A stretch of 64,000 nucleotides of DNA from an uncultured Bacteroidales bacterium (GTDB taxonomy: Bacteria; Bacteroidota; Bacteroidia; Bacteroidales; Bacteroidaceae), in the NCBI GenBank assembly GCA_902789725.1, contig CADAPC010000023.1, positions 1 to 64,000 of the forward strand, given 5' to 3'. The position numbers and the translations under genes are program-made. The notes below the pieces were generated by a model. That model saw nothing but the letters and a program-made list of their open reading frames with translations. It was not told the origin of the DNA and ran no database searches. This document shows positions 13,645 through 15,093 of the stretch, piece by piece (position 1 is the first letter of the stretch; every line of letters starts with the position of its first letter).

Positions 13645-15093
13645 ATGGAAAAGAAGAGTAATTGGCAGGAATTCAAAGCTGTACTTGACCAGTACGGAAT
13701 CACAAAGTTGTATCATTTTACGGATAGAGAGAATTTGGACTCCATTATCAAAAATGGCGGTTTGTATTCATGGGGGGATTGTGTGGAGAAGGGCTTTGCT
13801 GTGGCAAGACCTGGTGGTAGTGATGCGTCACATCAAATAGATAAAAGATATGGCTTGCAGAAGTATGTTCGTGTGAGTTTTACTAGAGAGCATCCTATGA
13901 TGTATGTTGCGATGGGGGACGGACGTATCTCTAATCCTGTGGTGTTGGAGATTGATTTGGATGTGATATATGGTGAGAACACCATGTATGCAGATAGGAA
14001 TGCAGCCAAGAATGGAATGAATGTGGGTGGAACTTTGGATGATTTCAAGAAGATACATTTTCAATCGGTAAAAGCTCGTAAGCATTTTGATTTGCCAGAG
14101 GAGGAACAAATGTTCTTTCAGGCAGAAGTGTTGGTGAAGAATTTCATTCCATTGGAATATATCAAGAACATAGGCAACTTTGGCATACCAATTCCTTCAA
14201 AACCCAAGGAATTGCAAATCAAGAATCCATATACAGCGCAAATAACAAGGAATACGCCTACGGCATTTATCTTCTTGGTTGATCATTCGGTGAGCATGAA
14301 AAAGATGACCTCTCTCTATGGCGAAGAAATGACGATGGCGGAGGCAGCAGCAAGAATCGTAAACAATCAGATCAACGACTTGGTGTGGAGGTGTGTCAAG
14401 ATGGATGATACCAGACATTATTATGACATCGCAGTTGTGGGATATGGCGTGAAAGCATATAGTGGATGGCAGGGAGAATTGGAAGGACGCGACTTTGTTT
14501 CGCCAGAAGAATTGAAGAGCCATCCATTTACAAAGATTACCACAAGAAAGGAAACGAGGACCCGAAAGGGTGTACAGGTCAAAGAAGTGGAACAGGTGCA
14601 ATGGGTAAGTGCAAGGTGTAATGGAAGCTGGACGCATTACCATGAAGCATATGATTATGCGAAGAAATTATTGAATGAATGGATGAAAGAACACCATGAT
14701 AAGGATTGTTACCCTCCAACTGTTATCCACATCACTGACGGCGAATTCAATCATGCCACAAGGGATGAAGTGGTACAAAAAGCCAATGAATTGAAAGCGA
14801 TGTTTACGAACGATGGAAACGTGATTCTTTTCAATATACACTTCACGGCGAACCTTCATGCAGACTCTGTGGCTTGTCCTATCAATAAGAGTGAACTTGG
14901 AGGTAATGGCTATGCAGAAGCACTATTCGATATGTCGAGTTTGTTGCCAGAGCGTTATAATCCGGATATTGCTCGTTGTCTAAATGATACGAGAACAGGA
15001 CGTCACGTAGCAATGGGCGTGAATGCTGATGCCACAACGCTCATTAAGCTGATGGACATTGGAACGCCCACTAATATCAGTCAAAATCAATGA
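13645..15093 (+). CDS. DarT-type ADP-ribosyltransferase fused to a vWA domain
   Basis: A 482-residue fusion. Residues 10-180 resemble DarT (DUF4433) ADP-ribosyltransferases: LYHFTDRENLDSII with His24, then a late QAEVLVKNFIPLEYI in which Glu161 would be the catalytic Glu. DarT enzymes use NAD+ to modify bases in single-stranded DNA. Residues 203-450 form a von Willebrand A domain with a MIDAS motif DHSVS (Asp213, Ser215, Ser217) and a later HITDGE. The vWA part resembles the TerY/YegL group that occurs with PP2C and kinases. The gene overlaps the PP2C start by 4 bp (ATGA). The fusion suggests that the modifying enzyme is recruited or controlled through the vWA domain and phosphorylation. Confidence 0.8.
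   Translation: MEKKSNWQEFKAVLDQYGITKLYHFTDRENLDSIIKNGGLYSWGDCVEKGFAVARPGGSDASHQIDKRYGLQKYVRVSFTREHPMMYVAMGDGRISNPVVLEIDLDVIYGENTMYADRNAAKNGMNVGGTLDDFKKIHFQSVKARKHFDLPEEEQMFFQAEVLVKNFIPLEYIKNIGNFGIPIPSKPKELQIKNPYTAQITRNTPTAFIFLVDHSVSMKKMTSLYGEEMTMAEAAARIVNNQINDLVWRCVKMDDTRHYYDIAVVGYGVKAYSGWQGELEGRDFVSPEELKSHPFTKITTRKETRTRKGVQVKEVEQVQWVSARCNGSWTHYHEAYDYAKKLLNEWMKEHHDKDCYPPTVIHITDGEFNHATRDEVVQKANELKAMFTNDGNVILFNIHFTANLHADSVACPINKSELGGNGYAEALFDMSSLLPERYNPDIARCLNDTRTGRHVAMGVNADATTLIKLMDIGTPTNISQNQ

Follow-up and report, generated by a model that had tools for sequence, protein, structure and literature searches.

A DarT ADP-ribosyltransferase fused to a TerY-type vWA domain, encoded with a predicted NADAR-type antitoxin in a kinase/phosphatase operon of Bacteroidales

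The stretch of DNA studied here, the window, comprises 64,000 nucleotides of a contig of an uncultured Bacteroidales bacterium (CADAPC010000023.1). One of its genes appeared to encode a DarT-like ADP-ribosyltransferase, an enzyme that modifies nucleic acids, within the same protein as a MIDAS-containing vWA domain, a domain normally used as a scaffold in kinase/phosphatase triads. This raises the questions of whether such a protein is genuine, in which genetic surroundings it occurs and what a DarT enzyme would do as part of a triad. A preliminary description of the window had proposed both domains, their union in one protein and His24 and Glu161 as active-site positions. The features discussed below are listed in Table 1.

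Domains and conservation of the fusion protein

Residues 23-198 of the protein were matched by the Pfam DarT family PF14487 with an E-value of 3e-37 and 128.8 bits, compared with a gathering cut-off of 22.5 bits. PADLOC identified TerY at residues 195-475 (E 2.4e-47) and DarT at residues 20-177. The nearest solved sequence to the DarT half is DarT1 of E. coli C7 (8baq, E 9e-8 with a family profile), and Glu161 of the fusion aligns with E152 of this protein. With 47.9 bits, the DarT half missed the cut-off of 150 bits of the NCBIfam equivalog toxin_DarT and is therefore regarded as a divergent member of the family, not filed as a toxin_DarT equivalog.

The structure of the fusion was modeled with AlphaFold2 from 40 homologues (pLDDT 84), and both folds could be identified in the model. 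The DarT half superimposed on DarT 7omy with a Z-score of 16.6 (rmsd 3.2, 173 aligned; Foldseek E 2.6e-8) and the vWA half on the vWA domain 6tnj with a Z-score of 18.4 (rmsd 2.7, 188 aligned). The predicted model thus contains, within residues 1-190, the ADP-ribosyltransferase (ART) fold that had been proposed for this region. Between the halves, the pLDDT fell below 50 at residues 187-195, and judged from the model the linker is probably flexible.

A genome-wide scan, in which each GTDB species was represented by one genome, resulted in 70 loci. The full or nearly full fusion was found at 68 of them, isolate genomes included, with sequences that are 58-98% identical, so that the search for further DarT-vWA fusions called for in the preliminary description was clearly positive. 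Because the full-length protein recurs at 68 loci, also in isolate genomes, an assembly artefact or chimera is ruled out. The fusion is carried by Prevotella, Segatella, Bacteroides, Parabacteroides and Muribaculaceae, Bacteroidales of gut and rumen; according to the record titles nearly all fusion loci are labelled Bacteroidales, and one MAG is labelled Lachnospiraceae. The distribution is patchy: among 151 Bacteroidaceae genomes, eight carry full fusions, and a single broken copy was also found. The latter, present in one genome, is split over several frames (L010/L017/L020, G099:C7:80350-81789). Other DarTs in the Bacteroidota genome sample are nearly all stand-alone frames of approximately 200-235 codons. 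No full-length fusion was found when viral contigs, phage records and plasmids were searched, and on this search spread of the fusion by phages or plasmids was rejected; the same search returned only a stand-alone DarT, located on one Parabacteroides plasmid.

Both proposed active-site positions are strongly conserved: of the 67 rows extending to position 24, 66 have His24, and Glu161 is found in all 69 rows. In the DarT half, the HFT motif that binds NAD is also nearly invariant across the aligned rows. At the position of His24, DarT1-like and ARG-associated DarTs typically have His, but many macrodomain-associated DarTs have Arg. It is concluded that His24 marks the NAD-binding motif and is not a universal catalytic residue, and that Glu161 is the ART glutamate. 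In the vWA half the MIDAS is complete, as D213, S215, S217, T330 and D365 are each present in 70/70 rows. The omega values (Ka/Ks), informative where a pair has accumulated sufficient synonymous change but not where very few changes are present, are approximately 0.02-0.10 for the DarT half in the informative pairs, as low as those of the vWA half. By this measure, which is derived from the sequences, both halves are under strong purifying selection and the enzyme is kept functional.

A TerY-P-like operon with a predicted NADAR-type antitoxin

The TerY-P triad consists of a TerY vWA protein, a PP2C phosphatase and an STK kinase, and TerY-P-like modules are stand-alone anti-phage systems (PMC11090510). 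The proposal that the vWA domain is of the kinase/phosphatase-triad type agrees well with its surroundings, as the PP2C gene overlaps the fusion gene by 4 nt and kinase genes are located upstream. The gene order is conserved: one or more kinases with LRR, Sel1 or WG repeats are followed by DUF6939, the DarT-vWA fusion and PP2C. PP2C is present downstream of the fusion in 65/65 loci, usually with the 4-nt overlap, and its metal-binding Asp motifs NED17, SD30GxGG, SD173 and D253D254 are invariant in the alignment.

A kinase of a single family was found at most 5 kb upstream of the fusion in 44 of 52 loci. Among 40 upstream kinases, Pkinase was identified in 39, BspA-type LRR in 24 and Sel1 in 14, and WG and other domains were rarer. 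The window contains three homologous kinases in tandem that carry different repeat domains. The first of these likely starts at the ATG at 753, judging from its sequence. The third matched the PADLOC profile STK_OB with an E-value of 3e-54 for the kinase portion only; the match ends at approximately position 345 of the 562 profile positions, and repeats fill the C-terminus. No OB-fold or zinc ribbon of the canonical TerY-P kinases was seen, repeats being present in that place. HGDLKPDN and DYDG are intact in the three kinases of the window, and all three have Arg (YAVRCF/HAARCF) in place of the VAIK lysine that is found in most relatives.

Like TerY-P, the operon thus combines a TerY-like vWA with a full MIDAS, PP2C and an STK with an STK_OB-like kinase domain. 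In contrast to TerY-P, the vWA here carries DarT, a NADAR-like gene is present, and LRR, Sel1 or WG repeats were seen at the kinase C-termini where an OB-fold or zinc ribbon would be expected. As the STK_OB match covers the kinase domain only and repeats follow it, the operon is filed as TerY-P-like only. A vWA/kinase/PP2C operon of the same family without DarT and DUF6939 was also found (L009/L090:1-3162, one sequence reached from two collections).

Other neighbors are variable. The accessory A1S_2505/DUF1810 gene directly follows PP2C in 21 of 61 loci and is optional, and AlbA-type neighbors are present at 10/70 loci. Ordinary metabolic genes, xylose isomerase among them, make up the downstream flank of the window. 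The flanks of related loci contain AbiE, AbiH, type IV restriction and RhuM-like genes, which are at most suggestive of a defence island.

Table 1. Positions of the operon genes, domains and residues in the window, and of the related Zorya-type loci.
Feature	Position	Strand	Basis or remark
Protein kinase with Sel1-like repeats, candidate input kinase	729..3149	+	Sequence reading; homologous to upstream kinases of relatives
Protein kinase with BspA-type LRR, candidate input kinase	3751..7422	+	Profile matches
WG-repeat protein kinase, predicted lipoprotein/membrane protein, candidate input kinase	8251..11484	+	Pkinase and WG repeats
Schlafen/AlbA_2 protein with RecG-type C-terminus	11618..12895	+	Pfam; variable neighbor, not core
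DUF6939 protein, 215 aa, predicted divergent NADAR antitoxin	12985..13632	+	PF22075, E 6e-77
DarT-vWA fusion protein, 482 aa	13645..15093	+	Single uninterrupted ORF
DarT ADP-ribosyltransferase domain, residues ~1-185	13645..14199	+	PF14487, structure match
His24 codon	13714-13716	+	
ART Glu161 codon	14125-14127	+	
Linker, residues 186-198	14200..14238	+	Low model confidence
TerY-type vWA domain, about residues 199-482	14239..15090	+	PADLOC TerY, MIDAS, model
MIDAS DxSxS codons (D213, S215, S217)	14281-14295	+	
MIDAS T330 codon	14632-14634	+	
MIDAS D365 codon	14737-14739	+	
PP2C-family phosphatase, 260 aa	15090..15872	+	PADLOC PP2C, E 2e-8; start overlaps fusion stop by 4 nt
Accessory gene: A1S_2505 N-terminal domain, DUF1810, C-terminal part	15877..17139	+	Domain matches
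DarT-DUF6939-ZorA/ZorB-like loci	L104:4769-8950; L094:5284-9406; L138:2521-6342; L140		

The gene directly upstream of the fusion encodes a DUF6939 protein in 57 of 63 loci, and DUF6939 is nearby in 61 of 63 when inserted genes or overlapping starts are counted. It is absent genome-wide from two fusion loci, L074 and L082, and is therefore not strictly required. Several members of this family resemble NADARs, which are the antitoxins of guanine-specific DarT1 (PMC11543638). The DUF6939 protein encoded beside the stand-alone DarT on the Parabacteroides plasmid matched Pfam NADAR-DarT1 with an E-value of 9.9e-6, and for other DUF6939 proteins NADAR-DarT1 was the second-best family (E 4e-4 to 0.2). 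The gathering cut-off of Pfam NADAR/NADAR-DarT1 was missed, with 25.6 bits for the best DUF6939 member and 11.6 bits for the window protein compared with 27 bits, and the claim is therefore limited to a distant, NADAR-like relative.

Residues E60, K67, K88 and D152 of the window protein align with E88, K95, K115 and D171 of the E. coli C7 NADAR, which matter for hydrolysis or rescue (PMC11543638). They are among the few invariant columns in an alignment with DarT1-associated NADARs and are invariant in 19 diverse DUF6939 members, phage ones included. A template-free model of the protein (pLDDT 86.6) gave as best solved structures the NADAR of G. lovleyi (8bat, Z 10.3, 168 aligned) and YbiA (2b3w, Z 7.8); the next structure after these two NADARs, among the chains aligned, reached a Z-score of 3.8. 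A link from the sequence of the window protein to solved NADARs was dropped: an hmmsearch of its shallow profile against the PDB found no solved NADAR, and hhalign against four NADARs, also with shallow profiles, resulted in a probability of 9%, with the E..QG.KVF motif aligned. The link is based on the matches of divergent members, the residue pattern and the fold, and on these sequence and model data DUF6939 looks like a divergent NADAR and a candidate antitoxin.

The fusion and its partner can be compared with DarTG1 of E. coli C7 (PMC11543638), with which they share a DarT ART fold with the catalytic Glu and an adjoining gene for a NADAR-fold partner with the E/K/K/D residues. Unlike in DarTG1, the toxin is fused to a vWA domain, kinase and phosphatase are added, and the antitoxin is the divergent DUF6939 encoded upstream of the toxin, whereas the DarTG1 antitoxin is encoded downstream. 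DarTG2 (DarT2 with the macrodomain protein DarG) has a related ART toxin, but the operon contains no macrodomain partner and the DarT of the fusion groups with NADAR- and DUF6939-associated DarTs. DarT-NADAR toxin-antitoxin systems and TerY-P-like triads are already known. By strict definition the operon belongs to neither, as the cut-offs of the NCBIfam DarT equivalog and of Pfam NADAR are missed and no OB-fold or zinc ribbon was seen in the kinases. The literature search returned no description of the covalent union of the two, in which the partner is a NADAR-like family not recognized as such so far: no paper was found that connects DarT to TerY or DUF4433 to vWA, an earlier mention in Anantharaman et al. 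(2012, Mol BioSyst) being possible, and no paper that names DUF6939.

DarT and DUF6939 in other settings

In approximately 300 Bacteroidaceae genomes, DarT adjoins 17 of 18 clear DUF6939 genes, mostly as the fusion. The lone clear DUF6939 without a DarT neighbor in that sample is divergent, with 39% identity (L155:1489-2196), and visual inspection indicates that the conserved Lys-Arg is missing from its K88 motif.

At four loci, a stand-alone DarT with an N-terminal extension is followed by DUF6939 and then by ZorA-like and ZorB-like genes; at L140, ZorA alone lies inside the stretch. These genes were identified as Zorya-type by PADLOC (ZorB 6.6e-14 and 3.9e-10, ZorA 1.4e-7). A close relative of the DarT and DUF6939 pair thus precedes homologues of the Zorya genes, but here DarT is not fused, its extension is coiled-coil-like in some cases, and kinase, PP2C and vWA are missing. 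The usual Zorya effectors were not identified at these loci, which may represent a variant of Zorya whose effector would ADP-ribosylate DNA and be accompanied by its antitoxin. Since DarT and DUF6939 are both missing from the L009/L090 triad and both occur without vWA at the Zor loci, toxin and antitoxin appear and disappear jointly with respect to the triad, with the exceptions of L074 and L082, where DarT is kept and DUF6939 is missing.

In a tree of DarT domains the fusions cluster together, next to the DarT of L094, which is DUF6939-associated, and not far from the DarT1s that are associated with NADARs. They are separated from macrodomain- and ARG-associated DarTs, and the support for the deepest split is moderate (89/76). 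N119 of the fusion aligns with N104 of C7 DarT1, the Asn that contacts the base, and is replaced by Asp in L082. As proof of guanine specificity N119 was dropped, because Asn is also found in some macrodomain-associated DarTs. In a clade of their own, DarTs are paired with an ADP-ribosylglycohydrolase gene (PF03747) that directly follows DarT (L014:1501-3549, L134, L136 and L137), a third class of hydrolase paired with DarT; at L014 a UvrD-type helicase is encoded upstream.

DUF6939 was also found without an adjacent DarT in three IMG/VR contigs (L105:6001-6546, L106:5998-6552 and L107:5917-6474), where it is possibly a phage counter-defence against DNA ADP-ribosylation. On a plasmid of Bartonella sp. 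HY761 (L101:4950-5501), DUF6939 occupies the position of an immunity gene, two genes after the gene for an RHS-repeat toxin, and the C-terminus of this toxin weakly resembles ART-type domains (DUF7587 1.6e-5, NarE 0.12). A further cluster (L102:1-3501) contains an ADP-ribosylglycohydrolase, NADAR, DUF6939, a calcineurin-like phosphoesterase and a Sir2-like fragment.

Proposed mechanism and alternatives

The reading we favor, with reasonable though not high confidence, is that a DarT1-like toxin and a NADAR-type antitoxin are wired into a TerY-P-like triad that is gated by phosphorylation and directed against phages. Domains, sites, operon and the NADAR-like identity of the partner were computed; for the guanine target, the gating, the trigger and the role in defence we infer the following course. 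A trigger would probably be sensed by the variable C-terminal LRR, Sel1 or WG repeats of the kinase. The vWA domain with its MIDAS would nucleate a complex that is the target of kinase and PP2C. Since the vWA protein also contains DarT, whether this complex is phosphorylated would determine when DarT is released or activated. Active DarT would use NAD+ to transfer ADP-ribose to DNA bases, presumably to guanine as E. coli C7 DarT1 does, and this modification would block replication of the invading phage and/or the infected cell. DUF6939 would remove ADP-ribose and thereby shield the cell from leaky DarT activity, and PP2C would reset the switch. A role in defence is proposed because TerY-P modules are anti-phage (PMC11090510), because DarTG systems protect against phages (PMC11543638), and because of the pairing with Zorya-type genes and the DUF6939 genes in phage contigs.

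A genuine kinase-gated DarT-NADAR system could instead serve the control of stress or growth, via dormancy or arrest of chromosome replication, which we regard as rather unlikely. TerY-P triads were first tied to tellurite and metal stress (cited in PMC11090510), BspA-LRR, Sel1 and WG repeats could serve as sensors for signals from the cell or its envelope, and the downstream flank of the window is metabolic. However, the toxin-antitoxin pair is also coupled to ZorAB genes, DUF6939 genes occur in phage contigs as counter-defence would predict, the fusion is distributed patchily, and some defence genes, at most a suggestive sign, lie in the flanks of relatives.

Other alternatives concern the reaction itself. 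Modification by this DarT of RNA or of a protein within the complex, such as the kinase, would fit the varied targets across the ART superfamily and the preference of a scaffold-bound transferase for local substrates, but the targets of characterized DarTs are DNA bases and the substrate of NADARs is guanine-ADP-ribose (PMC11543638), which leaves such a target improbable. Slightly more improbable still is a DarT half that has become a non-catalytic reader of single-stranded DNA and NAD+, through which the triad would sense exposed single-stranded phage DNA, with DUF6939 as a separate ADP-ribose hydrolase. The existence of the vWA/kinase/PP2C core without DarT, which makes DarT an add-on, and the two loci that keep DarT without DUF6939 are in line with such a reader; the ART glutamate retained in every row, the nearly invariant HFT motif and the strong purifying selection speak against it, and the NADAR-like partner at nearly all loci argues for a reaction that needs reversal.

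Going beyond the favored reading of a phosphorylation-gated anti-phage toxin, we tentatively propose, at somewhat less than even confidence, that DarT and the NADAR-like DUF6939 constitute a portable toxin-antitoxin cassette mounted on at least two unrelated sensors, the vWA triad and the Zorya-type motor, and that phosphorylation of the vWA complex would directly switch DNA ADP-ribosylation. With the vWA domain tied covalently to an enzyme whose family catalyzes a known reaction, and with a candidate antidote encoded adjacent to it, the output of the triad would become measurable as ADP-ribosylated DNA. The Pfam family DUF6939, also found in phage contigs and beside an RHS toxin, would thereby receive a testable function. 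If the proposed mechanism is true, this would be a toxin-antitoxin system gated by phosphorylation and not by antitoxin turnover, and the fusion with its adjacent predicted antidote suggests phosphorylation as the means by which cells gate an anti-phage toxin that poisons themselves.
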